Positions 8,769-43,104 of a DNA stretch of 43,482 nucleotides are shown piece after piece (the first letter of the stretch is position 1; each line of letters starts with the position of its first letter). Below the pieces are notes generated by a model. The model was not told the origin of the DNA, did no database searches, and saw only the letters and a list, made by a program, of their open reading frames with translations. Source of the stretch: Methanosaeta sp. PtaB.Bin018 (GTDB lineage: Archaea; Halobacteriota; Methanosarcinia; Methanotrichales; Methanotrichaceae); contig MVQH01000057.1 in the NCBI GenBank assembly GCA_002067755.1, positions 1-43,482 on the forward strand. Direction: 5' to 3'. The translations under genes and the position numbers were made by a program.

Positions 8769-9899
8769 CTAGATCCACTGCCAGTAGATCATGGGCGCAA
8801 GCGAGATCAGCGCTAGGCCCGTCACAAGCCTCATCCCTGCACGGTGGTCCTTGCGAAAAGCATCCACCTGCTCTGGGCTCATCCCCAGCGCGATGAAGCC
8901 TCCCAGGACGATGATCGGCAGGACGACGCCCAAGTTGAAGAAGAACAGACAGGCTGCACCTGCAAAATAGCTCTGGGATGATAGGAGATCCAGTATTGCG
9001 AGGTAGATGGCTCCCACGCACGGTGCCTTGACCAGGGAGAAGAGCGCCCCGATCAGGAAGTATGAGCTGAAACTGCCCCTGTCCACTCCTCTCTGGAAAT
9101 GATCGAGCGCCCAATCAGTCCGGAATAAGGATGCTTTTCCCCTGGCCAGCCGCACGGCGTCCAGCACCTGGGATAGGCCTGCCAGCAGTAGAAATGCACT
9201 CAGAGCATAGCGAAAGATGCTCGCCACTGCGTCCGTCGCAAGCAGCCGCTGCATGCCCAGGCCGAAGAGGAAGTACATTGTGAAGATGCCTAAAGAGAAG
9301 AACACCACCATCCTCACCATCTCGCGCTTGCGGCCTGTCGAGGAGAGCACCGATGCCGCCAAGAAGACCAGAATTCCCAGGAGGCAGGGGTTGAATCCCG
9401 CCACCAGCCCTGCGCCCAGGACTGCAAAGATCGTGTAAATGGAGAATTCCCGCAGATTCAGAGATGGGCCGTCTTCGATAATGCTCGGATTTGCGCTCTC
9501 ATTGCTCGGGATGGAGAAGACAGGGTTGAAACTGGGAGTCTGATTTGCCAGTGCTTCTCGAATCAACCTCTCGAGCAAGGCATCGTCCCCCTCATAATCC
9601 CTGTAGTTTATTACGCTCGTCCCAATGATGATCGCAGGGACATCCTTTGCTTTGTACTGCCCAATGATGCGATGGCCTTCATCGGAATAGTAATAGTGCC
9701 TGCTTATGTTGAGTGGTATCTCTTCTCCCACTTGGCCTAGCACTCTTTCTGCTGCTGCACACTTCGTGCAGCCAGGCGAATTGATGAGTATGACCTCGCT
9801 GGCGTCTTTGCCTTGTGCGAGGGTGGTGCTCGCTGCGGCCACGCCTGATATCAGAACCAGGGCAACTATGACCTTCAGGAGAGGCATGAGGGCGCGCAT
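8769..9899 (-). CDS. Exported thioredoxin-like domain fused to a CcdA/DsbD-type membrane thiol transporter
   Basis: Protein of 376 residues. After a signal segment (1-28) a small thioredoxin/glutaredoxin-like domain (about 34-115) carries SPGCTKC with Cys44 and Cys47 and the cis-proline segment KDVPAII. A linker is followed by a six-helix membrane domain in which GFNPCLLG (Cys172) and KAPCVGAI (Cys294) match the paired cysteines of CcdA/DsbD. These proteins carry reducing power from cytoplasmic thioredoxin to exported proteins; here donor and first acceptor are joined. A TATA box (9932-9924) lies close to ATG 9899, giving a very short leader. The adjacent exported rhodaneses with CxxC motifs are plausible clients, which is inference. 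Confidence 0.85.
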   Translation of the reverse strand: MRALMPLLKVIVALVLISGVAAASTTLAQGKDASEVILINSPGCTKCAAAERVLGQVGEEIPLNISRHYYYSDEGHRIIGQYKAKDVPAIIIGTSVINYRDYEGDDALLERLIREALANQTPSFNPVFSIPSNESANPSIIEDGPSLNLREFSIYTIFAVLGAGLVAGFNPCLLGILVFLAASVLSSTGRKREMVRMVVFFSLGIFTMYFLFGLGMQRLLATDAVASIFRYALSAFLLLAGLSQVLDAVRLARGKASLFRTDWALDHFQRGVDRGSFSSYFLIGALFSLVKAPCVGAIYLAILDLLSSQSYFAGAACLFFFNLGVVLPIIVLGGFIALGMSPEQVDAFRKDHRAGMRLVTGLALISLAPMIYWQWI

Positions 9900-9944: not shown

Positions 9945-10508
9945 TCAACTGACATACTCAAGCACCGGTCGGCTCCCCGAAGATGCCCTGCTGGAAGCGA
10001 ACCCCACAGACGCGCCGTCCTCGGCCACCAGAGCTATGGAGTAGGGACAGCCTTCAGTGCAGATCTCAACTGCTTTCTTGATAAGTGGCGTGACGTCAAT
10101 CGTGTAGCTGCCCTCTTTGCTGATCTCCACAGACGCAGAGACGTCGGGATTGTATTCTGGCTTGTCATTCCAGGTCGCTGTATCGAAGGTCGCACCATGC
10201 ACCAGATACGCCCTTATCTCGCCTGGCTCCTTTACCTGGACTGCGTCGAGGGCCAATGTGGCAGACTGGATCTGCTCAGGCTTGAAGATTCCCTGGGAGC
10301 CAAAGAGGTTGACAAAACTCAGGTAAACCTCCTGAAAGGACTTGCCATCCTCGGATGCTGCCCAGAGAGTATCATTATCGCTGAAGCTCTGGTCTATGTA
10401 GTTCGCATCCACATAAGTTTCGACATCCGTATTCGCTTTGAAGCTGCCAGCCTCGGCTGACGCCGCAAGCAGCAGGAATAGACCGATAAGAGCATACGAT
10501 GATCTCAA
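9945..10508 (-). CDS. Secreted DNRLRE-domain (CBM96-like) protein
   Basis: From TTG 10508 the product has 187 residues: signal peptide MRSSYALIGLFLLLAASAEA, then one beta-sandwich domain. The pattern of a set-off strand with YVDANYIDQSFSDN, SFVNL, ATLALDAV, TFDTATWNDKP, ITVDVTPLI-like SYTIDVTPLIKKAV and SRPVLEYV at the end is that of DNRLRE domains found in archaeal and bacterial surface proteins, often beside carbohydrate-active modules. The frame opens earlier at 10532, but GGAGG lies 8 bases before TTG 10508, and only that start gives a clean signal peptide. No catalytic residues are apparent. It is divergent from the NosD-like gene. Confidence 0.75.
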   Translation of the reverse strand: MRSSYALIGLFLLLAASAEAGSFKANTDVETYVDANYIDQSFSDNDTLWAASEDGKSFQEVYLSFVNLFGSQGIFKPEQIQSATLALDAVQVKEPGEIRAYLVHGATFDTATWNDKPEYNPDVSASVEISKEGSYTIDVTPLIKKAVEICTEGCPYSIALVAEDGASVGFASSRASSGSRPVLEYVS

Positions 10509-10566
10509 AGTTAATTCCTCCAATGACACCATCTCTCATATGGTAAAAAGGCTTATGTTCATATGC

Positions 10567-10615: not shown

Positions 10616-10648
10616 CATCTCGACTGCTCTTGGTCTTTGGGTGGTCGC

Positions 10649-12088
10649 TTGAGAACTACAGCCCTTTGCATCGCAGGCATAGCATTGCTAATTTGCGTCA
10701 TCGCAGACGGCGCGACGATACAGGTGAGTTCGAACTTACAAGCTGCGATAGATGCAGCCTCCCCCGGCGATACACTTCAGGTGGCTCATGGCGTATACGA
10801 CAAAATAACAATCCAAAAGAGCATAAACCTGGTGGGCAATGGCGCAACCATTCGGGCAGGCAGCAGAGATGCCTGCGTGAGCATCGAGGCCGACGACGTC
10901 CTCATCACAGGTTTCCAGGTCCGTGATGGCTTTTATGGGATAAAGCTCAACAGCGTGAAGGGCTGCAGGGTCTCCAATAACACAGTAATTCGATGCACTC
11001 AGCCGGGCATTGCCTTGCTATTCTCCGATGGAAATATCATCACGGGAAACAATGCCAGTTTCAACGGCCTGGGAGGCGAGGGCTGGTATGGAATCTACCT
11101 CTCCAACTCAGATGACAACCTCATCGCGAACAATGTTGCATATGGCAACGGTGCTTATGGCATAAACCTCTTCCCATCATGTAATAACAACACAATCAGA
11201 GGAAACGTGCTTCAGGGCAACATGTACGGGCTCTACATGTTCACCAACTGTGCAAAGAATCGCATTGAGTTCAACGATATGTCGAAGAACACCAATTCAG
11301 GCCTCGATCTGCGCTTCAACTGCACAGACAACATAATCCTCAACAATACCATTGAGAGGAATGTCGTGGCCGGCGTGACCCTCATGGAATCGGGCCGAAA
11401 TACCATAGAAGGAAACCTGATCAGTGGAAATGGCCGCTACGGACTGCAGGTGCAGGGCAAGTCAGATAATAATATAATTTCCTACAACAACATCTCAGAA
11501 AGCCAGACTGGCATATTCGTGGAGTCAAGCGGAAATATGATCTACGGCAACAGCATTCTGGACAATGTGGTTCAGGCAGAGGACAGGGGCAAGAACGCCT
11601 GGAATGCGAACTATCCGAAAGGCGGCAACCTTTGGAGCGACTACCAGGGAAAGGATGAGATGGCAGGCCCAGGCCAGGACATCTCCGGGAAGGACGGCTT
11701 TGGCGATGAGCCCTACCAGATAAATGAGGTGGCAAAAGACGATTACCCTATCATGGGCAATCAGATCAAGCAGATCAGCGTCATGGACAAGAGCCTCTCC
11801 CCGCAAGATGCAAAAGTTGGCGACAGCATTGCAGTAATGGCAAAGTTGAGATCGAAATATGCGCTTTCTCAGGTTGCAGTGCACGCCTTCCAATCGGGAA
11901 AAGAGGCAAAAGGCTACGCGAGGCTGGTCTTGTCTGAGGATTCCTACAAGGGCACATTCCCCACAGCCCTTCTCGATCCAGGAGAGTATGATATCGTCCT
12001 GAGTGCGAGGGACTCGCGTGGATATGAGCTGCAGGAGACATTAGGCAGCATAACGGTCAGATCAAGGAGTGGTTTTGCCTCATCATAG
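10649..12088 (+). CDS. Exported NosD-like right-handed beta-helix protein with C-terminal beta-sandwich module
   Basis: About 479 residues. A signal peptide (LRTTALCIAGIALLICVIADG) is followed by the NosD opening IQVSSNLQAAIDAASPGDTLQVAHGVY, then about ten parallel beta-helix turns rich in asparagine (NTIRGN, NNTIERN, NTIEGNLISGN). A NosD-type end GNLWSDYQGKD...DGFGDEPYQI...DDYPIM follows. The last 95 residues form a separate module (KVGDSIAVMAK ... YKGTFPTALLDPGEYDIVL), which looks like those of the neighbouring rhodanese and protease. Such proteins bind or cut surface polysaccharide; no catalytic site is clear. TTG 10649 lies after GGTGGTC; an upstream TTG 10637 has no ribosome site. The rhodanese gene follows at 5 bp. 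Confidence 0.82.
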   Translation: MRTTALCIAGIALLICVIADGATIQVSSNLQAAIDAASPGDTLQVAHGVYDKITIQKSINLVGNGATIRAGSRDACVSIEADDVLITGFQVRDGFYGIKLNSVKGCRVSNNTVIRCTQPGIALLFSDGNIITGNNASFNGLGGEGWYGIYLSNSDDNLIANNVAYGNGAYGINLFPSCNNNTIRGNVLQGNMYGLYMFTNCAKNRIEFNDMSKNTNSGLDLRFNCTDNIILNNTIERNVVAGVTLMESGRNTIEGNLISGNGRYGLQVQGKSDNNIISYNNISESQTGIFVESSGNMIYGNSILDNVVQAEDRGKNAWNANYPKGGNLWSDYQGKDEMAGPGQDISGKDGFGDEPYQINEVAKDDYPIMGNQIKQISVMDKSLSPQDAKVGDSIAVMAKLRSKYALSQVAVHAFQSGKEAKGYARLVLSEDSYKGTFPTALLDPGEYDIVLSARDSRGYELQETLGSITVRSRSGFASS

Positions 12089-12093
12089 GTCAA

Positions 12094-13185
12094 GTGAGGA
12101 AAATGGGGAGATTTATGATATCATCTAAATTTTGTTTATTGGGAGTGGGCATTTTTGCACTGGCCGCACTATTGGTGCTGGCCGGTTGCGCAGTGGCGAG
12201 CAATGAATACGGTTGCGATGCCTGCCAGGATTCCGGCTGGTCGGGCGAGGCAAAGCTGGACGAGATAGGAAACCCGAACGCTGGCGCAACATCTCAGATA
12301 CTTCCGGGCCTCAGCACAGTCCAGAAATCCAGGGTCGCCAAGTGGAATCAACCTCTTCACGGCTTTGCTGATGAGCAGAAAAACGTCTCACAGGCCGCTG
12401 CACCAGCCATGGACAGGCCTAGGATGAACGAGGCCATGCGCAGTGACGCCGCCAAAGAGATGCTCGTACCAATAGAGGATGTCTCGGAGACGGATATACT
12501 GCTCGACATCAGCGAGAGCGCGAAAGAGCACATCCATGGATCAATTGCCATTCCTTACACCGAATTCCTGATCAATGGTACTTTTGTAAAATCCCAGGCT
12601 GAGCTTGTCGAGATCCTGGGAGATGCTGGGATTTCCCGCGATGATTCTGTTGTGATATACGGCGAATGCATGCCATGTGGAGGAGGGCCGGCTCCTGCAA
12701 CCTTCGCATATTGGATCATGAGATCTCTGGGCCAGGAAAATGTCAGGGTGATGGATGGAAACGTATCCGACTGGGCTGCAGCCGGAAGGCCAACTGCCAG
12801 TGATACATCCATAAAACCTCAGAAGACATACACTGCCAATGTCACGTCTGAGTTCACAGCCACATACGATTATGTGAAGAGCGGAAAGGCTCAGATCGTC
12901 GATGCCAGAACGATTCAGGAGTTTGGCGCGGGGTCCATACCAGGGTCCATTAACATTCCCAATGAGAGCGTTGTCAGCGGCAGCAAGATCAAGGACGAGG
13001 CAAAGCTGGAGAGGATCTTTGGCATCCTGAACAAAGATCAACCTGTTGTGGTCTTCACCAATACGGGCGTCAAAGCATCTGTTGTCTGGTTCTCTTTGAA
13101 GCTTCTGGGCTATGACGCAAAACTTTACTCCTATGAAGACTGGTTGTACCACCAGGAGACAGAAGGGAATGCGACCAATGTCTAA
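12094..13185 (+). CDS. Exported two-domain rhodanese-like protein (copy 1)
   Basis: About 363 residues from GTG 12094; ATG 12115, after GGGGAG, is an equally good start. The signal segment ends in LLVLAGC, a lipobox-like site (Cys32). Just after lies CDAC (41-44). Domain 1 (about 125-232) has VVIYGECMPCGGGPAPAT with Cys192 and Cys195 in the active loop and VRVMDGNVSDW. Domain 2 (about 250-352) has QIVDARTIQEFGAGSIPGSINIP but the loop FTNTGVKAS (321-329), so it has no catalytic cysteine. In animal rhodanese the active cysteine is in domain 2, so the arrangement is reversed. It may carry sulfane sulfur or act as a thiol oxidoreductase outside the cell. Overlaps nothing; 11 bp to the paralogue. 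Confidence 0.82.
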   Translation: MRKMGRFMISSKFCLLGVGIFALAALLVLAGCAVASNEYGCDACQDSGWSGEAKLDEIGNPNAGATSQILPGLSTVQKSRVAKWNQPLHGFADEQKNVSQAAAPAMDRPRMNEAMRSDAAKEMLVPIEDVSETDILLDISESAKEHIHGSIAIPYTEFLINGTFVKSQAELVEILGDAGISRDDSVVIYGECMPCGGGPAPATFAYWIMRSLGQENVRVMDGNVSDWAAAGRPTASDTSIKPQKTYTANVTSEFTATYDYVKSGKAQIVDARTIQEFGAGSIPGSINIPNESVVSGSKIKDEAKLERIFGILNKDQPVVVFTNTGVKASVVWFSLKLLGYDAKLYSYEDWLYHQETEGNATNV

Positions 13186-13196
13186 GAGGAGGGTGC

Positions 13197-14690
13197 ATGA
13201 GGATAATTAGAGCAGCAGAATGCATTGTATTATCATCGCTAATAGCTGCAGCCCTGATCTTTTGTGCCTTTGCAGAATGCTCTGTTTGCAAAGGTGGCTC
13301 GCCATCAGCTCAGCAGGATGTGCTGAGTTCCGAGTGGGCGGCATTTCTCGGAGATGAGCCTGCAAACTCAAGCTGGGTTTACACCGCCACCGACGATCCC
13401 ATCTTGACCGCAATGAGCGCTGTGAGCGAAGGCGCATCCACCAATGGCGAGAATAGCATCACAGACGCAAGAAGCCCTGGCTTCGCATCTGTGCTCGTCC
13501 CAATAGCAAACGCCAGCAGCTCAGGGGTGATTCTGGACATCAGCCCCAACTCAACTGAGTACATCCCGGGAGCAATAAACATCCCCTACACCAAATTCCT
13601 GGAAGCCGGTGGAGCCCTCAAGCCGGTTTTGGAGATGGCCAAGGTACTGGGTGATGCGGGCATATCTGAGAATGATGATGTGCTGATTTATGGCGAATGC
13701 CAGCCATGCGGCGGCGGACCGTCAGCTGCGACATACGTTTACTGGATCATGAAGTATCTTGGGCATGAGAGGGTGAGGTTGCTGGATGGCGGGATCGATG
13801 ACTGGGTGGCTGCAAAGCAGCCCACAGCTGCAAAGCCCAGTGCGCTTCCCAAGAAGAACTACACCGCCACGATAAATTCCAACCTTCTGGCCACATACGA
13901 GTATGTTCGCAGTGGGGCTGCCCAGATCGTAGACGCCAGGACTGCAGAGGAGGTCAGCGCAGGCTCGATTCCAGGGGCCGTCAATATACCTTATGATAGC
14001 GTTCTGAATGGCAAGAAGATAAAGGACGAAGCTGAATTGGAAAAGCTGTTCGTCCCCCTTAGCAAGAGCAAGCCCGTGGTAGTTTACACAAACACCGGGG
14101 TCAAGGCGTCCATGGTCTGGTTCGCCCTCTCGCTCCTGGGGTATGACGCAAGAATATACTCTTGGCAGGACTGGACGGCAAATTTGCCCAGGCTTGATAT
14201 CGACATCCAAGAGGCAAAAGCTCAGCCAAACCCTGCGAAGATCGGAGATGCGGTTCAGATAACAGTCACCTTTGTGCAGGAGATGCAGACAGCAGACGGC
14301 AACGAGACGCCTGAGCGCAACGAGACTGTGCTGACTGTCAAGGGATGTGCAACCTGTGGATTTGGCTCGCCGCAGGGATTCGCAGACCTCAGCAGCACAA
14401 ATGGCGTGGTGCAGATTGGATCCAGCACAAAGGCCCAACAGGGCGCCTCTGACGATGGCTTCAAGGTCACAGCGAAGGTAAAAAGCCAGGCAGGAGCTAC
14501 TGTCTCCAGCGTCATCATGAAGCGCGTGTCAGGAGATGAGTTCGCTGGATTTTGGAATGCAAACGTCGCCGCAGGAACGTACAGGGTGGACATCGTGGCC
14601 TCCGCCAGTGAGGTCACCAAGACGTTCACAGACGTGCTGGAGATACAGGTCACGGGCACCAGTAAATATAAGAATCTTAAAAGTCAATAG
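13197..14690 (+). CDS. Exported two-domain rhodanese-like protein (copy 2) with C-terminal module
   Basis: 497 residues, ATG 13197 after a strong GAGGAGGGTG site. Signal peptide ends near residue 27 and is followed at once by CSVC (28-31). Domain 1 (about 100-210) has VLIYGECQPCGGGPSAAT with Cys168 and Cys171; domain 2 (about 225-328) has YTNTGVKAS (297-305) without cysteine. The extra C-terminal 165 residues open with NPAKIGDAVQITVTF, hold a third pair CATC (384-387), and end FAGFWNANVAAGTYRVDIVAS, a beta-sandwich module like that of the neighbouring proteins. A tandem duplicate of the preceding gene that has gained this tail. Sulfur transfer or thiol exchange at the cell surface is inferred. 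Confidence 0.82.
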   Translation: MRIIRAAECIVLSSLIAAALIFCAFAECSVCKGGSPSAQQDVLSSEWAAFLGDEPANSSWVYTATDDPILTAMSAVSEGASTNGENSITDARSPGFASVLVPIANASSSGVILDISPNSTEYIPGAINIPYTKFLEAGGALKPVLEMAKVLGDAGISENDDVLIYGECQPCGGGPSAATYVYWIMKYLGHERVRLLDGGIDDWVAAKQPTAAKPSALPKKNYTATINSNLLATYEYVRSGAAQIVDARTAEEVSAGSIPGAVNIPYDSVLNGKKIKDEAELEKLFVPLSKSKPVVVYTNTGVKASMVWFALSLLGYDARIYSWQDWTANLPRLDIDIQEAKAQPNPAKIGDAVQITVTFVQEMQTADGNETPERNETVLTVKGCATCGFGSPQGFADLSSTNGVVQIGSSTKAQQGASDDGFKVTAKVKSQAGATVSSVIMKRVSGDEFAGFWNANVAAGTYRVDIVASASEVTKTFTDVLEIQVTGTSKYKNLKSQ

Positions 14691-14702
14691 TGGGAGTCTG
14701 GT

Positions 14703-16571
14703 GTGAACTCCAGCTCCTTGATTTGTGCTCTCCTTCTGGCCAGCCTAGTTAGCCTTGCTCTTGCAATGCCCCAGTACAACCCACTTGAGAACAAGGCGAC
14801 GGTCTGGTTCCAGAAGGAGTACAACAATTATCTCAGGCCAAGCTCGAATGACAGCATGCCGCCGGTCATCTACAGCGTGAGCGTGACCCCCTCTGTGCTC
14901 AAGACGGGAGACCCAAGGAGCGAGATCAATGCCTTCGTTTACGATTCTGTAGGATTGGAGATGGTCTATGCAGACGTGGGCAGTCGCATGAACCTCATGC
15001 TGGATTTGGACAAAGACGGCAGATACACTGGCTACTGCGGATCTAACCTGCCTCCGGGAAATTACAAAGTGACCATAGTTGCCATTGACAAAGCAGGAAA
15101 CGCCGCCAAAGACGAGTCCAGGAGCATCACCATTCGCGATCCCAATGATCTCAATGGCAATGGCATAGAGGACAGCCTGGAGAGGGAGAGGGCCAGGGAC
15201 ATGAAGGTCATCGTCCTTCATGATGGCAACCTGAGCGGCGTGGCATCAGGGCAAGGAGGAGAGAGGTTAAAAATTCTGCCGGGCAGCGCCATGACCGTCT
15301 CTAGGGACAGCCTGGAGAAGATCTCCAAGATCAAGGGCGTCAAGGGCATCTACAAGGACCAGAAGCTGAAGGTCCTTGGCGCACAGGGAGGGGCTTCGCC
15401 GGCGGCGTCCTCAGTCGATGACCCAAGGAAGAAGAGAGAGAGCTTGACAGGAGAGGGAGTGGTTGTTGCCCTCATCGATACTGGGGCTGACCCAAATCAT
15501 GAGGTCCTGGAGGGAAAGATCGTGGCCTTCAAGGACTTCGTGAACAACCAGAGTGCGCCGTATGATGATAATGGACACGGCACTCACTGTGCCAGCCTCA
15601 TATCCGGAGACGATGGGATTGGGGTCGCACCTGGGTCGAGACTGGTGGTGGTGAAGGTCATGGACAGGGATGGAGCATGCTACTTATCGGATGCCTTGAA
15701 GGCCCTGGACTGGTGCCTGGAGAATAAGGATCGTTATGGGATAAAGGTAATATCATTTAGCGTTGGCGGTGAGAGCCCAAATGAAGGATCATCCCTCCTC
15801 GATGAGGCCTGCAACAAGATGGTCGATGAAGGGCTGGTCATGTGCGTTGCGGCTGGAAACTCCGGCCCAGCGCCAAGCTCTATCGTAGTTCCAGGAGATG
15901 CGAGCAAGGTGATAACAGTGGGGGCCATCGACTCAAGTGGCTCTATATTCGAGCAATCCTCACGCGGACCTGTATCAAGCGGTGAGATCAAGCCCGATTT
16001 GGTGACCATAGGCGTGGACGTGGTCTCGGCACTGGCAGGTTCCAAGAATGGCTTGAGCTCCATGAGCGGCACCTCCATGGCGGTCCCTCAGGTCTCGGGA
16101 GCATCTTGTATCCTGCTGGAGGCTCAGAGCGGCCTTATGCCTGCAGATGTGAAGAGGATGCTTCTCAAGACTGCAGACGACCTGGGCAGGGCAGGGCCAG
16201 ATGACGTATACGGCTACGGAGCTCTGAATTTGACAAATGCACTGAAGAGCGCGCAGACTGCACCAGAGAAGCTGTCTGCGCCCGTTCTGGAGAGCGTGAA
16301 GCTGAACAGAAATGAAGCTCATGTTGGAGATCCAGTGATGATCGAGGCAAGCGCCATTGGAGATCTGAAGGCGATCAATTCGAACATCATTGGGCCGGAC
16401 AGGACGCTTGAGATACCAATGGACGACTTTGACGGCAATGGCATTTACTCAGCTCGCTGGGAGACGAGCTTCTGGACGCCTGGAGACTACCAGGTCCAGG
16501 TCAATTTGCAGGGGAGGTTCGGAGAGGTGGACTTCAGGGCGGTCCCTTTCCGTCTTCTGGCAAAACAATGA
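14703..16571 (+). CDS. Secreted subtilisin-like (S8) serine protease with flanking beta-sandwich modules
   Basis: 622 residues from GTG 14703. Order: signal peptide (1-21); N-terminal module 53-145 (LKTGDPR ... GRYTGYC..LPPGNYKVTIVA); a pro-domain-like segment 166-225 (MKVIVLHDG...GVKGIYKDQKLKVL); the S8 catalytic domain 248-510 with Asp259 (ALIDTGADPNH), His292 (NGHGTHCA), oxyanion Asn386 (AAGNSGP) and Ser458 (SGTSMAVPQ); C-terminal module about 525-620 (HVGDPVMIEAS...WTPGDYQVQV). All catalytic residues are present, so it should be an active secreted peptidase. It is last of four plus-strand exported-protein genes with 5-12-bp gaps, so probably co-expressed. Its target is unknown; neighbours with related modules are candidates. 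Confidence 0.92.
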   Translation: MNSSSLICALLLASLVSLALAMPQYNPLENKATVWFQKEYNNYLRPSSNDSMPPVIYSVSVTPSVLKTGDPRSEINAFVYDSVGLEMVYADVGSRMNLMLDLDKDGRYTGYCGSNLPPGNYKVTIVAIDKAGNAAKDESRSITIRDPNDLNGNGIEDSLERERARDMKVIVLHDGNLSGVASGQGGERLKILPGSAMTVSRDSLEKISKIKGVKGIYKDQKLKVLGAQGGASPAASSVDDPRKKRESLTGEGVVVALIDTGADPNHEVLEGKIVAFKDFVNNQSAPYDDNGHGTHCASLISGDDGIGVAPGSRLVVVKVMDRDGACYLSDALKALDWCLENKDRYGIKVISFSVGGESPNEGSSLLDEACNKMVDEGLVMCVAAGNSGPAPSSIVVPGDASKVITVGAIDSSGSIFEQSSRGPVSSGEIKPDLVTIGVDVVSALAGSKNGLSSMSGTSMAVPQVSGASCILLEAQSGLMPADVKRMLLKTADDLGRAGPDDVYGYGALNLTNALKSAQTAPEKLSAPVLESVKLNRNEAHVGDPVMIEASAIGDLKAINSNIIGPDRTLEIPMDDFDGNGIYSARWETSFWTPGDYQVQVNLQGRFGEVDFRAVPFRLLAKQ

Positions 16572-16578
16572 GGCTGGT

Positions 16579-17124
16579 ATGTCTTTAGAGGAGATTGCAA
16601 GATTTGGCAGGAAAGTGATCGCCTCTGGCCTTACCAGCTCCAGGTTCGGGAACATAAGCATTCTTCAGGGCGACAAGATACTCATAACCTGCACGGGCTC
16701 GATGCTGGATGAGCTGGATTCGAGCCAGATCGTGGCAGTGGATCTGATGTGCCAGTGCGATCTCGATAAAATAGCGAGCAGTGAGACCTGCGTTCATAGG
16801 GCCATCTACCAGAGCCACCCTTGTGGCGCTGTCATCCACACACACTCTCCTTATGCTGTGGCCCTATCTTTGCTGGAGAAGGATGCTGTGTCGCCAATAG
16901 ACAGCGAGGGAGTTGCCTTTTTGGGCAGTATGCCGATAGTAGAGGGCGGCTTTGGAACGGAGGGGCTCGCGCTGTCAGTATCTGCGGCGCTGAAGTCTCA
17001 CAGGGCATGCATTGCTCGCGGCCATGGAGTCTTTGCAGCTGGCGAATCATTGAGCGAGGCGTATGCAGCCGTCTGCATGGCCGAGCACAGCGCTCAGGTC
17101 AGATATCTGGTGAAGAGCTATTAG
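16579..17124 (+). CDS. Class II aldolase/adducin family protein (fuculose-1-phosphate aldolase type)
   Basis: 181 residues from ATG 16579, preceded by GAGG at 5 bases; the frame is open further upstream inside the protease gene, but that part is a shadow. SSRFGNISI, TGSMLDEL, HRAIYQ, VIHTHSPYAVAL (two zinc histidines), DSEGVAFLG and ARGHGVFAAG (third histidine) are the family's metal site. Homologues in methanogens cleave fuculose 1-phosphate to lactaldehyde, a proposed source of lactate for coenzyme F420, and some act on methylthioribulose phosphate. The precise substrate is not readable from sequence. It starts 7 bp after the protease stop, but the function looks unrelated to that cluster. 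Confidence 0.88.
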   Translation: MSLEEIARFGRKVIASGLTSSRFGNISILQGDKILITCTGSMLDELDSSQIVAVDLMCQCDLDKIASSETCVHRAIYQSHPCGAVIHTHSPYAVALSLLEKDAVSPIDSEGVAFLGSMPIVEGGFGTEGLALSVSAALKSHRACIARGHGVFAAGESLSEAYAAVCMAEHSAQVRYLVKSY

Positions 17125-38843: not shown

Positions 38844-39629
38844 CTATTCCGACAGTCTCAGCATGATGCCTGTCCTTCTTGCTCTCTCTATGGCTCTGTC
38901 GAAAAGTATCAAGCCAACGACCAGGTAAAGGCCTGCAAGCGTTGCTCCAAGAACTAAATTGTGCTGTTCTGGGATAAATACCGACCTGTAATATTCCAGA
39001 AAATATGTCAGTGGTATGGCTCTGGCTGCAGCCTGCAGCGGCAAGGGCAGCACATCAACAGGATAGTAAATTCCGCTGACGAGCAGGATCAAACCGCTGA
39101 GGCTCCACGCAGCCACATCAGCCTTCTGGCCAAAGGTGAGGATGGAGATGCATACGATGATGCCGATGATAGCCGAGACGGCGAATACTCCTGCCAGAAA
39201 TATGAGCACCGGCAGAAGCCCTCCTGCCAGGAAATTGAAGCCGAAGAGGTAGTGGCTGACGACCACCAGGATGAAGAACACGACGCTTCCCCGGACGATG
39301 CCGAATAGCAGTGCCCCGAAGACCAGGTGATAGCTTCGTACAGGCGCGATGAAGGTGTTCTTTATGCTCTTGGACCACATATCAAACAAGAGAACGTAGG
39401 CTACATCTATCTGCGCCACCTGAAGGATGGTGAGAGCTATGGCCCCCACCAGCAGAAAGGAGACCATTCCCTCATCGACCTTCAGAAACTTCGTCAACAA
39501 GCCGATTGAGAGCAGGCTGATCATGGGCCAGAAGAAGATCTCGAAGATGGTGAAGATGTTCCTCCGGGAGATGATCCAGTTCTTGTAGGCAGAGGCCAGG
39601 TATTTATTCAGCTTACCGCGCCAGTTCAA
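38844..39629 (-). CDS. ABC-2-type transporter permease
   Basis: 261 residues, six hydrophobic segments. IFFWPMISLLSIGLL, the long middle helices and SGIYYPVDVLPLPLQAAARAIPLTYFLEYYRS are the ABC-2 membrane-domain pattern seen in NodJ/DrrB-type exporters. TTG 39629 overlaps the ATPase stop and has GGAGGAC at 8 bases. It forms an exporter with the ATPase gene; cargo unknown. Confidence 0.9.
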   Translation of the reverse strand: MNWRGKLNKYLASAYKNWIISRRNIFTIFEIFFWPMISLLSIGLLTKFLKVDEGMVSFLLVGAIALTILQVAQIDVAYVLLFDMWSKSIKNTFIAPVRSYHLVFGALLFGIVRGSVVFFILVVVSHYLFGFNFLAGGLLPVLIFLAGVFAVSAIIGIIVCISILTFGQKADVAAWSLSGLILLVSGIYYPVDVLPLPLQAAARAIPLTYFLEYYRSVFIPEQHNLVLGATLAGLYLVVGLILFDRAIERARRTGIMLRLSE

Positions 39630-40545
39630 GAAATACGTCCTCCAGATCGGGCTGCATTATGATTATATCCAGAATCCTTGCTTTGGCAAAGTGCTTGACG
39701 ATCATGTCCAGGTTCTCAGCGCTCCTGTCGATCATCATCTCCACCCTTCCGGGCGCTGAAAAGACGTTTATGACGCCGGGCAACCTCTCAAGCTCCGCGA
39801 GGCCGACACTGCCCTCGTACAATACAGTCACCTTCTCGCCCAGGCCGAGCTGGTTCTTCAGGTTCTGGGGCGTGTCCAGGGCCACGATCTCACCCTTGCG
39901 CAGGAATGCAATTCTGTCGCAGAGCATCTCTGCCTCGGGCATGTAGTGCGTGGAGAGCACTACGGAGATCTCCTCTTCCTCATGGATTCTCTGGATCAGC
40001 TGGCGCGTCTTCATGGAGATGTCGGGATCAAGGCCGGTGGTGGGCTCGTCCAGGAACAGAAGCCTCGGCCGATTGAGCATGGCCTTGGCCAGAGACAGGC
40101 GCTGCTTCAAGCCCGTTGAGAGGTCCTCAAACTTCATATCCTGAAAATCTCCAAGCTCAAAGGCATCTATTTGATCTCTTACGGTCTGCGAGAGGGCAGG
40201 ACCATACAGGCCGTAGAGCATCCCAAAATGGCGTAAATTCTCTTTTACTGTCAGGCTCCATGGAAAGTTGGGCTTAGCAGTGCTGATGTTTATCAATTTA
40301 CGAATTTCGTCCCGGCCCTTATGCGCATCCAGGCCGAGTATGCGCAGCCTTCCGACCTCCGGGTAGATCAAAGTTGAGAAGATCGATATGAGGGTTGTCT
40401 TTCCCGATCCATTCGGCCCGAGGAGACCGAAGATCTCTCCGGTTTCGACCTCCATGGATATGTCCTTTAGCACAGTGGTGGTGGCCCCAAAAAATCTCCG
40501 GTAGCTCTTGCAAATCCCCTGTGCCTGTACAGGTTTTTCTCCCAT
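39613..40545 (-). CDS. ABC transporter ATPase subunit (ABC-2 partner)
   Basis: 310 residues. Walker A GPNGSGKTT (about 43-51), signature LSTGLKQRLSL in place of LSGGQ, Walker B LLFLDEPTTGLDP, H-loop STHYMPEAE, and a C-terminal extension of about 85 residues that is usual in DrrA-like subunits. It drives the permease encoded next, by 17-bp overlap. Follows the exported-protein gene by 2 bp. Confidence 0.94.
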   Translation of the reverse strand: MGEKPVQAQGICKSYRRFFGATTTVLKDISMEVETGEIFGLLGPNGSGKTTLISIFSTLIYPEVGRLRILGLDAHKGRDEIRKLINISTAKPNFPWSLTVKENLRHFGMLYGLYGPALSQTVRDQIDAFELGDFQDMKFEDLSTGLKQRLSLAKAMLNRPRLLFLDEPTTGLDPDISMKTRQLIQRIHEEEEISVVLSTHYMPEAEMLCDRIAFLRKGEIVALDTPQNLKNQLGLGEKVTVLYEGSVGLAELERLPGVINVFSAPGRVEMMIDRSAENLDMIVKHFAKARILDIIIMQPDLEDVFLELAR

Positions 40546-40547
40546 TG

Positions 40548-41513
40548 CTACCTTCGTCTCCCAAGCCTTCGCATCAGATCTCGCCTTTTTTGGATTACAA
40601 AAATGGATGCTATCAATATTCCGAGCATTGGCACCGCAAGGTTCCAGAGAGATCTGCCTGATCTCTTTACGGTTACAGGAAATGAGAGCATGTCTATGCC
40701 TTCATCTGAGATGATCTCGCAGCCAAGCTGGTAGTCCTGCCAGCTTGCATTCCCGTCTACTCGCACTGAAAAGCTGGCCACTGCCATGGCTCCAGGCAAC
40801 AAGTCCCCCAATGCAGATGCTCCTGTATCGTCGTGAAATGGAGGCGTGACTACGAGGCGAGCTGAGCAGTTGTGAAGAGCGTATGAACCATCATTCTCGA
40901 TTATGGTCATCAGCGTTCTGCGATCCCCTAAAACGAGATCGGACTTCGTTCCCAGGATCCTCAGCGGACTGGGTGTGCCAACGACATACACCCCGATGCT
41001 CAGACTTATGTTTTCCGGCTGCAGGAGAGGCGAACTATCCCCATTGCTCACGCTCACATCAGCCTGGCGCAGAAAATCCAGGCGGAGGGGGAGGGCATAC
41101 CAGCCGCGGGCTTCGTCTCCAACAGAGATGTTGAACTCCAGATCGGCCAGTGAGCCCGATGGCAATGACCCTATGTGCTGCGGCCCCGATCCGACCTTTA
41201 CCGGACCTGCTCCTTCCAGGACAGCAGTGATGCTGAAAGCATCGATGCTGTGCATCTCCTCGGACATCTCATCGAGAACGTCTTCCTTCGAACCGTTGCC
41301 GCTTATCGGCACAAGCTCCTTTAGCCTGCCGTGGTTGGCCAGAGTTATTTGGAGGAGAGAGCCTCCCCGGTAAAGGACTGGATTTGCAACTGAAGCATTG
41401 AGATGAGGCTGTCCAATGGCTTTGTAGTGATCGTCTGCAAAAAACATGAGATCATCTGCCAGGCAGGCTGAGCAGAGAAGAAACAGAGTGCAGACGATCC
41501 CCAGGAGTTTCAT
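40548..41513 (-). CDS. Exported protein with COG1361/CARDB-like domains and C-terminal membrane anchor
   Basis: 321 residues: signal peptide (to about 19), a beta-rich outer part with two domains (YRGGSLLQITLANHG and LVLGDRRTLMTIIENDGSYALHNCSARLVVTPPF are CARDB-like strands), a membrane helix near 295-312 and a short basic tail. In Methanosarcinales such genes often sit beside an ABC-2 ATPase and permease, as here, so it may be the outer partner of that exporter. A perfect palindrome CCTTAATTAAGG (41538-41549) acts as a likely TATA box 25 bases before ATG 41513, which would be leaderless. Confidence 0.75.
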   Translation of the reverse strand: MKLLGIVCTLFLLCSACLADDLMFFADDHYKAIGQPHLNASVANPVLYRGGSLLQITLANHGRLKELVPISGNGSKEDVLDEMSEEMHSIDAFSITAVLEGAGPVKVGSGPQHIGSLPSGSLADLEFNISVGDEARGWYALPLRLDFLRQADVSVSNGDSSPLLQPENISLSIGVYVVGTPSPLRILGTKSDLVLGDRRTLMTIIENDGSYALHNCSARLVVTPPFHDDTGASALGDLLPGAMAVASFSVRVDGNASWQDYQLGCEIISDEGIDMLSFPVTVKRSGRSLWNLAVPMLGILIASIFVIQKRRDLMRRLGRRR

Positions 41514-41537
41514 GTTATCTTGGGATTAACTTGCATC

Positions 41538-41549
41538 CCTTAATTAAGG
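41538..41549 (-). promoter_or_regulatory. Palindromic TATA box of the ABC-2 operon
   Basis: CCTTAATTAAGG, perfect 12-bp palindrome in the 36-bp gap between znuB and the CARDB-like gene, centred 30 bases before ATG 41513. No ribosome site follows, which fits a leaderless start. Confidence 0.55.
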
Positions 41550-42356
41550 CTATCTGGTGAGGGCGATGCTCAGGAAGAACACAACTGCTGCTGTCAGGAT
41601 TATGGTTGCCCCAGAGGGGACGTTCAGCAGATAGGAGACCATCAAGCCTGCTGTCACAAAGACGGCTCCAAGAAGCGCCGACCCGGCCATGATGCCTGTT
41701 ATGCTCTTCATATGCTGCCTGCTGATGGCTCCAGGAATTGTGAGCAGGGCTATGACCATTATTATTCCTACTATCTTGATCAAGACCACAACGCTGAAGG
41801 CAACCATGCAGAGCAAGAGGAGTCGCAATCTTTGCACAGGAAGGCCGATGGCCTCTGCGTAAGCTGGATCGAAGCTCAGGATGAGAAATTCCTTGTAGAG
41901 CAGGAATACCAGGATCAGGACGGACAGGGTGAGTGCCAGGATAAGGGAGACGTCGTTCCAGGTCACCGCCAGGATGTTGCCGAAGAGGTAACCATAAAGA
42001 TCTTTGGCATAGCCCTTGCTCAGGCTCATGAAAATTATTCCGAGAGCCATTCCTGTGGCAAGAAAAACACCGATGGCAGTGTCCTCAGAGACACGCGAGC
42101 GAGAGCTGACGGTGCCAATACCCAGGGCGGTTAAAACTGCCGAGGCTATTCCAAAGCCCAAGGGGTCCATGCCCAGGAGATAGCCAAAACCGATCCCTCC
42201 AAAGGCAGCATGGGCGATGCCATCGCTTATGAATACAATTTTATTTAATATTACGTATATCCCTATTATGCTACATAGCACCGATGCGACGAGGCCTGCT
42301 GCGAGGGCGCTGCGCATGAAGTCGTACTGGAGAAAATCAATTTGAAGCTCAATCAT
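41550..42356 (-). CDS. znuB: Metal ABC transporter permease (ZnuB/MntB type)
   Basis: 268 residues with about eight membrane helices. IGIYVILNKIVFISDGIAHAAFGGIGFGYLLG and ILSFDPAYAEAIGLPV are ABC-3 permease landmarks, and KIVGIIMVIALLTIPGAISRQ the coupling region. Transports zinc or manganese. It overlaps the ATPase gene by 8 bp. Confidence 0.93.
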   Translation of the reverse strand: MIELQIDFLQYDFMRSALAAGLVASVLCSIIGIYVILNKIVFISDGIAHAAFGGIGFGYLLGMDPLGFGIASAVLTALGIGTVSSRSRVSEDTAIGVFLATGMALGIIFMSLSKGYAKDLYGYLFGNILAVTWNDVSLILALTLSVLILVFLLYKEFLILSFDPAYAEAIGLPVQRLRLLLLCMVAFSVVVLIKIVGIIMVIALLTIPGAISRQHMKSITGIMAGSALLGAVFVTAGLMVSYLLNVPSGATIILTAAVVFFLSIALTR

Positions 42357-43104
42357 GTCTCCTCAAAACCCGATGGGGCGTGCCATGTGCGATCATCTCC
42401 ACAGGGCAGCCGTAGGCCTTCTCGATGTCCTCGCGGGCCAGCTCCCCAGAGCCATGGTAATAGAGCCGCTGATTCAAGCAGGCGATTTTTTTCACATGGG
42501 TGGAGACTGCTGTGATGTCGTGTGACACCAGCACAATTGCAATGCCCATATCGCGATTAAGGTGAGAGAGAAGATCGTAAAACTCAGTCTGCTGGGCCGA
42601 GTCCACTCCGGATGTTGGCTCGTCGAGCAACAGCAGCCTCGGATCTGAAACAAGGGATCGCGCCACAAAGACCCTCTGCTGCTCGCCTCCAGAGAGAGAG
42701 CCAATCTCGCGCTCTGCATGGCCGCCCATTCCAACGGCCTCCAAGGCCCGCATTGCAGCATCGCGGTCCTCGCGGCCATAGCGCCGCAGCAGGCCGACAC
42801 GGCTGTATCTTCCCATGAGAACAACTTCCAGGGCTTTGACTGGAAAGCTCTGATCGAAGAGGGTTTTCTGGGGCATGTAGCCGATCTGGCCGCGCGCATC
42901 CTTGGGAGACCTGCCAAATATCAAAACTGTGCCTCGGTCGGGTTTGATGAGGCCAAGCATGACCTTGATGAGCGTGGACTTCCCGCCGCCGTTCGGTCCG
43001 ATCAGGCCCAGGAAATCGCCCTCCTCAAGATCCAGGTTTATGTCCTCAAGGACTGGGTGTGTCCTGTAGCAGACCCACAGGCCGCGAATTGATACGATAT
43101 TCAT
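42349..43104 (-). CDS. znuC: Metal ABC transporter ATPase (ZnuC/MntA type)
   Basis: 251 residues. Walker A GPNGGGKST (about 36-44), Q-loop YMPQKTLFDQSFPV, signature LSGGEQQRVFVARSL, Walker B LLLLDEPTSGVD, H-loop VSHDI, and the C-terminal CLNQRLYYHGSG typical of zinc/manganese importers. Its ATG overlaps the stop of the binding-protein gene by one base, and its own end overlaps znuB. Confidence 0.95.
   Translation of the reverse strand: MNIVSIRGLWVCYRTHPVLEDINLDLEEGDFLGLIGPNGGGKSTLIKVMLGLIKPDRGTVLIFGRSPKDARGQIGYMPQKTLFDQSFPVKALEVVLMGRYSRVGLLRRYGREDRDAAMRALEAVGMGGHAEREIGSLSGGEQQRVFVARSLVSDPRLLLLDEPTSGVDSAQQTEFYDLLSHLNRDMGIAIVLVSHDITAVSTHVKKIACLNQRLYYHGSGELAREDIEKAYGCPVEMIAHGTPHRVLRRHD

Follow-up and report, generated by a model that had tools for sequence, protein, structure and literature searches.

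A conserved run of exported rhodanese, beta-helix and protease genes in Methanotrichaceae and its possible link to the archaeal sheath

What might four exported proteins, encoded head to tail in a methanogen, do together outside the membrane? The question is raised by a run of genes in a 43,482-nucleotide stretch from Methanosaeta sp. PtaB.Bin018 (GenBank assembly GCA_002067755.1, contig MVQH01000057.1; hereafter the window, which is the entire contig), a genome whose kin are Methanothrix species. Methanotrichaceae hosts are acetate-eating methanogens, and Methanothrix is a major methane-producing genus. On the forward strand the run encodes a NosD-like protein, two rhodaneses and a subtilisin-like protease, separated by 5, 11 and 12 bp. 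A first-pass annotation of this DNA had described such a run and had proposed a secreted system whose members are held or matured together, of a kind not previously described. Its observation is confirmed and its interpretation is partly supported: secretion, a gene order kept within the family and a module common to three of the four proteins are borne out, whereas joint holding by that module, or maturation of the other proteins by the protease, would go further than these results. Gene arrangement and gaps are as it gave them, Pfam assigns NosD, Rhodanese (twice) and Peptidase_S8 to the products, all four proteins open with a signal-like hydrophobic stretch (judged by eye), and our literature search found no description of such a rhodanese system. 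It had begun the NosD-like gene at 10649, where there is an in-frame TTG, but the start taken here is a TTG four codons earlier. Beyond that annotation, we find a relocated CxPC pair and a lost catalytic cysteine in the rhodaneses, a CxxC pair in a shared module, a DsbD-type conduit beside the run and co-occurrence with the SH proteins of the archaeal sheath. Our tentative answer, to which we give a little less than an even chance, is that the run may be an extracytoplasmic thiol-handling module of Methanotrichaceae, the clients of which would be cysteine-bearing surface proteins, above all SH sheath proteins.

Each rhodanese protein contains two PF00581 stretches whose relatives are solved structures of thiosulfate and mercaptopyruvate sulfurtransferases (TST/MST), and the CxxC proteins of the run match rhodanese families, not thioredoxin families. 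Compared with the best solved relative, a Mycobacterium tuberculosis sulfurtransferase (3aax), the rhodaneses have an inserted CxPC pair and, in the second domain, a Thr where the catalytic Cys would stand. The first-domain loop columns G-E-C-x-x-C-G-x-G-P are invariant or nearly so in an alignment of 28 rhodaneses drawn from the run and from a paralogous locus, and this alignment is the better evidence for that loop because a pattern-based reading was partly confused by the N-terminal leader motif. The second-domain loop could be read in 66 of 77 Methanotrichaceae proteins and has Thr in 59, Ser in 6, Asp in 1 and Cys in 0. Since TNTGVKAS replaces the catalytic Cys of the C-terminal domain, we class the proteins of the run as predicted rhodaneses by fold and do not file them as active TST/MST. 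The reactive site may instead have moved, with the second-domain Cys gone and the CxPC pair inserted in the corresponding loop of the first domain. Relatives in ANME-1 (group 1 anaerobic methanotrophic archaea) and Archaeoglobaceae retain the canonical second-domain Cys (CxSG), and several of them also have a CxxC in domain 1, which suggests that the pair may have been gained before the old site was lost. There are extra CxxC pairs too: one immediately follows the signal-like segment, and another sits in the rhodanese-2 module, within its flexible insertion; the latter site, GCATCGFGSPQG, is kept in most module-bearing paralogues, and the module of the ANME-1 relatives likewise has a CxxC.

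Canonical haloarchaeal and bacterial rhodaneses were considered as members of this group and set aside, those examined being without the CxxC pair. Related exported rhodaneses without the CxPC pair are encoded at two other loci (L051:352-1407 and L054:16048-17148); the one in L054 adjoins the gene of a transporter of the SBF family (ACR3-like), and elsewhere both loci have ArsR and ArsP-family genes. A Methanothrix-type rhodanese (GECQPCGGGPSAAT, TNTGIKAS) is also encoded on a 4.2-kb contig labelled Candidatus Methanosuratincola (locus L135), probably through mis-binning or transfer.

The annotation had proposed looking for the gene order in other Methanotrichaceae. The order is kept across six genera of the family. 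Congeners with contigs covering the region have NosD, one or two rhodaneses and the protease in the same order, mostly flanked by DsbD and DNRLRE genes upstream and by aldolase, S2P and TraB genes downstream, and in the other genera the NosD-rhodanese(s)-protease order appears again with one to three rhodaneses. The NosD module and the protease N-terminal region are present in one copy each in each of 15 Methanotrichaceae genomes, and the Asp, His and Ser motifs of the protease are kept in 16-17 of 17 orthologs. In the window the DsbD and DNRLRE/CBM96 genes stand upstream of the run and are transcribed divergently from it. The DsbD-type protein keeps its PGCxKC, FNPC and K.PC motifs in 14 of 14 orthologs, and its gene adjoins rhodaneses at two loci, the run and the paralogous locus. 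The latter comprises an ArsP-like permease (ArsP family, 1e-69), DNRLRE, DsbD, sometimes a DGC protein, and rhodaneses, together with ArsR regulators, and is without NosD and protease genes; the DNRLRE/CBM96 gene is a conserved neighbour at both. None of nosZ, nosF and nosY was found in the conserved neighbourhood compared by homology to the window, and no whole-genome search for nosZ was made.

The annotation also held that one module recurs at the ends of the NosD-like protein and rhodanese 2 and at both ends of the protease, and the GD, middle-turn and PGxYxV motifs that it quoted do occur where it placed them. We compared profiles of orthologs with hhalign. Narrow profiles gave 1.6-88% overall, against at most 8% for controls, with the rhodanese-2 module reaching 88% against the protease N-terminus and 77% against the NosD C-terminus. 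With wide profiles, to which ANME-1 relatives were added, the rhodanese-2 module reached 94.5% and 94.6% against the same two segments, and an ANME-1 profile reached 96.7% against the protease N-terminus, all well above the controls (peptidase, rhodanese and beta-helix segments), which stayed below 3% against the wide and ANME-1 profiles. A shared module is therefore upheld for the NosD-like protein, rhodanese 2 and the protease N-terminus (at least 94.5%); the protease C-terminus is weaker, at 89.2% over 39 columns with the ANME-1 profile and 14.6% with the wide profile. Rhodanese 1 is without the module. Structure prediction agrees for the two modules modelled with AlphaFold2: the NosD module is seven-stranded (mean predicted local distance difference test score 86.5), and the rhodanese-2 module has a confident seven-strand core with identical strand order, its mean of 69.8 being owed to a flexible, low-confidence insertion at 45-101. 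Foldseek places both among many immunoglobulin-like (Ig-like) and E-set folds with modest scores, and its search of the two modules returned no single close, informative relative. In the protease, the N-terminal module precedes a DLNGNGIEDSLE linker and a propeptide-like segment.

How far does this module spread? Run on four whole genomes, a mixed module profile matches the protease N-terminal module, the rhodanese-2 module and a solo paralogue. It also reaches (both E ~7e-4) the NosD C-terminus of one genome and, in a second genome of another genus, the protease C-terminus, and there is a single further weak match (E 0.027). Outside NosD, the NosD-module profile finds only the Ig modules of ANME-1 protease-like proteins (5e-6 and 2e-5) among the phylum's 393 sampled genomes. 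That the module might be a generic Ig domain of exoproteins, scattered through the proteome, was considered and is unsupported at the sensitivity of HMMER, the module profile finding little else. The solo paralogue (L064:7326-7991) is a small secreted protein with a rhodanese-1-like N-terminal CxxC-W and the Ig-like module minus the CATC insertion, and it has relatives in further congeners. One genus clade (loci L043-L046) has lost the C-terminal module of rhodanese 2 at the run, with module-bearing paralogues retained elsewhere; since the module can be lost in this way, it is not essential for rhodanese 2.

Few biological envelopes are as tough as archaeal sheaths. Their hoops are linked by disulfides, and the proteins that assemble them are described as unknown (PMC11576556; PMC6242892; PMC10593813). 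A survey of archaeal sheaths reports SH proteins in all Methanotrichales and in 40% of Alkanophagales (ANME-1), finds no conserved SH neighbourhood and obtains no assembly candidates from genomic context (PMC11576556). DsbB and DsbD have been noted in sheathed groups, with DsbD in sheathed Methanotrichales (PMC11576556; PMC10593813). We asked how the exported rhodanese is distributed in the same 393 genomes, using a threshold of E < 1e-40. It is present in 22 (15 Methanotrichaceae, six genomes of the ANME-1 family and one metagenome-assembled genome of Archaeoglobaceae), and the next-best genomes, at ~1e-29, have ordinary rhodaneses. A Methanothrix-type SH profile, built around Mthe_0667 (assigned by counting genes back from Mthe_0677), finds its protein in 20 genomes, and all 20 lie within the 22. 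The two genomes with the rhodanese and no SH match are 81% and 75% complete, and the other three sampled members of the genus have both. Fifteen ANME-1 genomes negative for the rhodanese are also negative for SH, including three congeners of a positive genome. Neither the NosD nor the protease family tracks SH like the rhodanese outside Methanotrichaceae: the NosD module is restricted to that family, barring weak matches, and in ANME-1 the protease N-terminal region does not follow SH. Relatives of SH have a conserved CxGxxC at the C-terminal end. Very long open reading frames, of more than 1000 aa and with weak SH-profile matches (G000:C27 and similar ones in congeners), possibly encode giant sheath-like proteins.

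In the genome of M. thermoacetophila, mspA, Mthe_1070 and the rhodanese gene Mthe_1071 follow one another in that order, and the loop of Mthe_1071 reads GECRPCGG; the published numbering is likewise consecutive, mspA being Mthe_1069 (PMC10470525). MspA was later downgraded and now counts as a possible secondary component of the sheath (PMC11576556). At locus L033 an SH gene (L033:12542-13351) lies directly downstream of the protease, at the position of the aldolase gene of other genomes.

Taken together, these observations allow a mechanism to be proposed. Rhodaneses 1 and 2 would act outside the membrane as thiol-disulfide (or persulfide) carriers, and the adjacent DsbD-type conduit with its thioredoxin-like domain would keep them reduced. 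This would recall the reductive or isomerase pairing of DsbC with DsbD, with a rhodanese as the fold. Bearing the same Ig-like modules, the protease and the beta-helix protein may work at the same place by processing or scaffolding surface proteins, and the modules could tether the proteins of the run to one another or to some partner at the surface. We infer the thiol step from motifs and synteny, and the sheath as client from co-occurrence. Because DsbD supplies electrons, the likeliest role would be reduction or isomerisation of wrong disulfides, or holding cysteines open until assembly, rather than oxidation. A more specific proposal, in which the run would be a dedicated sheath-biogenesis thiol machinery, with a DsbD-reduced rhodanese fold, its reactive cysteines shifted to the other domain and doubled to CxPC, in the role that thioredoxin-fold DsbC/DsbA proteins have elsewhere, acting together with the protease and the beta-helix protein on the disulfide-linked sheath, strikes us as somewhat unlikely.

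Several points weigh against a thiol-handling module that serves the sheath. DsbD-type conduits bring reducing equivalents, and sheath disulfides require oxidation. The run is rarely near SH genes, which adjoin it in one of ~17 genomes (locus L033), and adjacency as a general rule was rejected on that count. The co-occurrence is phylogenetically clustered in three families, and some carriers are draft metagenome-assembled genomes that could be mis-binned. A sheath is reported for Methanospirillum, which our SH profile does not represent, and at the threshold used this rhodanese occurs in none of the sampled genomes beyond the three families, so some sheaths may do without it. Finally, the ArsR, ArsP-like and DGC genes of the paralogous locus point to soft metals or metalloids.

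That last point belongs to a different explanation, namely that the system handles copper, arsenic or mercury: the CxxC pairs would bind metal, NosD would be a copper-site protein, and the DsbD-like protein would reduce thiols. ArsR regulators, the ArsP-family permease and the DGC protein at the paralogous locus speak for this, as does the related single rhodanese beside an SBF-family (ACR3-like) transporter, and against an ArsG-type model the DsbD protein scores 27.9 bits, a weak match where the cut-off is 200. Yet arsenic-type genes are absent from the NosD-rhodanese-protease run itself, the NosD-like protein misses the curated cut-off of NosD_copper_fam by far (110.6 bits against 300), and the rhodanese family tracks sheath proteins; we consider metal handling unlikely. 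We regard as similarly improbable an extracytoplasmic sulfurtransferase, in which thiosulfate or polysulfide would provide sulfane sulfur that an acceptor receives by way of a CxPC persulfide, and the DsbD-type protein would only regenerate the thiol. By profile both domains have the rhodanese fold and match solved thiosulfate and mercaptopyruvate sulfurtransferases, and the canonical CxSG site persists in the relatives from ANME-1 and Archaeoglobaceae, but the Methanotrichaceae proteins are without the canonical catalytic Cys and without a CRxGxR-type loop, and the conserved neighbourhood showed no genes of sulfur metabolism. It is also conceivable that the genes are conserved neighbours whose products do not work together, being unrelated secreted proteins held side by side by genome history, with an Ig-like fold in common by chance or domain shuffling. 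Such folds are very common, the Foldseek matches are scattered with modest scores, and one clade has lost the module from rhodanese 2; against this, gene order is conserved over six genera, few other matches turn up when the module profile is run on whole genomes, and the pairing of rhodanese with DsbD recurs at a second locus, and we think this explanation very improbable.

Table 1. Positions of the run, its sites and its immediate neighbours in the window.
Feature	Position	Strand	Evidence or remark
DsbD/CcdA-type membrane thiol conduit with exported N-terminal thioredoxin-like domain	8769..9899	-	Pfam DsbD_TM 3e-9
PGCTKC of the thioredoxin-like domain of the DsbD-type protein	9759-9770		Membrane-part sites FNPC, KAPC
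Exported DNRLRE/CBM96 protein	9945..10532	-	CBM96 1.6e-14; DNRLRE 3.2e-15
Exported NosD-like right-handed beta-helix protein	10637..12088	+	Pfam NosD 9.8e-46
C-terminal Ig-like module of NosD-like protein	11738..12085	+	AlphaFold2, profile matches
Exported tandem rhodanese 1	12094..13185	+	Pfam Rhodanese 2.5e-20
N-terminal CxxC (CDAC) of rhodanese 1	12214..12225	+	Recurs in most orthologs
CMPC pair, first rhodanese-domain loop of rhodanese 1	12667..12678	+	C, C, G, G, P columns invariant in alignment
TNTGVKAS, second-domain loop of rhodanese 1 (Thr replaces catalytic Cys)	13057..13080	+	
Exported tandem rhodanese 2 with C-terminal Ig-like module	13197..14690	+	Pfam Rhodanese 2.3e-24
N-terminal CxxC (CSVC) of rhodanese 2	13278..13289	+	
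CQPC pair, first rhodanese-domain loop of rhodanese 2	13698..13709	+	Insertion relative to 3aax
TNTGVKAS of rhodanese 2 (Thr replaces catalytic Cys)	14088..14111	+	
C-terminal Ig-like module of rhodanese 2 and end of second rhodanese domain	14154..14687	+	AlphaFold2, profile matches
CATC within flexible insertion of module, rhodanese 2	14346..14357	+	
Exported subtilisin-like (S8) protease	14703..16571	+	Peptidase_S8 2.7e-54; Asp/His/Ser motifs present
N-terminal Ig-like module of protease	14850..15143	+	Y_Y_Y 1.2e-4, under Pfam cut-off; profile matches
Catalytic-domain end and C-terminal Ig-like segment of protease	16209..16568	+	Weakest of the four modules
Aldolase-like gene	16579..17124	+	Starts 7 bp past protease stop; conserved downstream neighbour (synteny)

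Elsewhere in the window, and judged from sequence alone, ZnuC/ZnuB-like metal ATP-binding cassette (ABC) transporter genes adjoin an exported protein (40548-43104), and an ABC-2 type exporter pair lies beside them (38844-40545). Among the loci compared, L208 has a repeat-rich stretch beside Cas-like genes, an apparent CRISPR array read as open reading frames.

How does a thiol-handling module of this kind compare with systems already described? Its rhodaneses resemble the two-domain TST/MST enzymes (PF00581; 3aax, 1rhs, 1urh), with which the tandem domains align over ~200 residues at E values down to 2.5e-26. They differ in being exported, in the replaced catalytic Cys of domain 2 and the CxPC pair inserted in domain 1, and in an added N-terminal CxxC, to which rhodanese 2 adds an Ig-like module with a further CxxC. 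As in DsbC-DsbD and ScsBC, exported CxxC proteins are encoded beside a DsbD-family conduit that has its own thioredoxin-like domain, but the exported partner has a rhodanese fold, unlike the thioredoxin fold of DsbC, DsbG and ScsC, and its redox activity is predicted. The beta-helix protein shares the NosD right-handed beta-helix with NosD of the nitrous oxide reductase cluster, and differs from it in falling well under the NosD_copper_fam cut-off, in its C-terminal Ig-like module and in its neighbourhood. Like other secreted subtilases with accessory Ig-like domains, the protease has an S8 domain with Asp, His and Ser motifs; its Ig-like modules are set differently, one before the propeptide-like segment and another after the catalytic domain. 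The work on SH sheaths, with DsbD as a possible sheath factor, concerns the same lineages, Methanotrichales and part of ANME-1, and in the portions available it found neither a conserved neighbourhood nor an assembly protein and does not mention the rhodanese run (PMC11576556). What the present comparison adds is a relocated cysteine site, in a rhodanese whose catalytic site appears to be swapped between domains, and its co-occurrence with the sheath, which makes the question of sheath assembly directly testable in Methanothrix.

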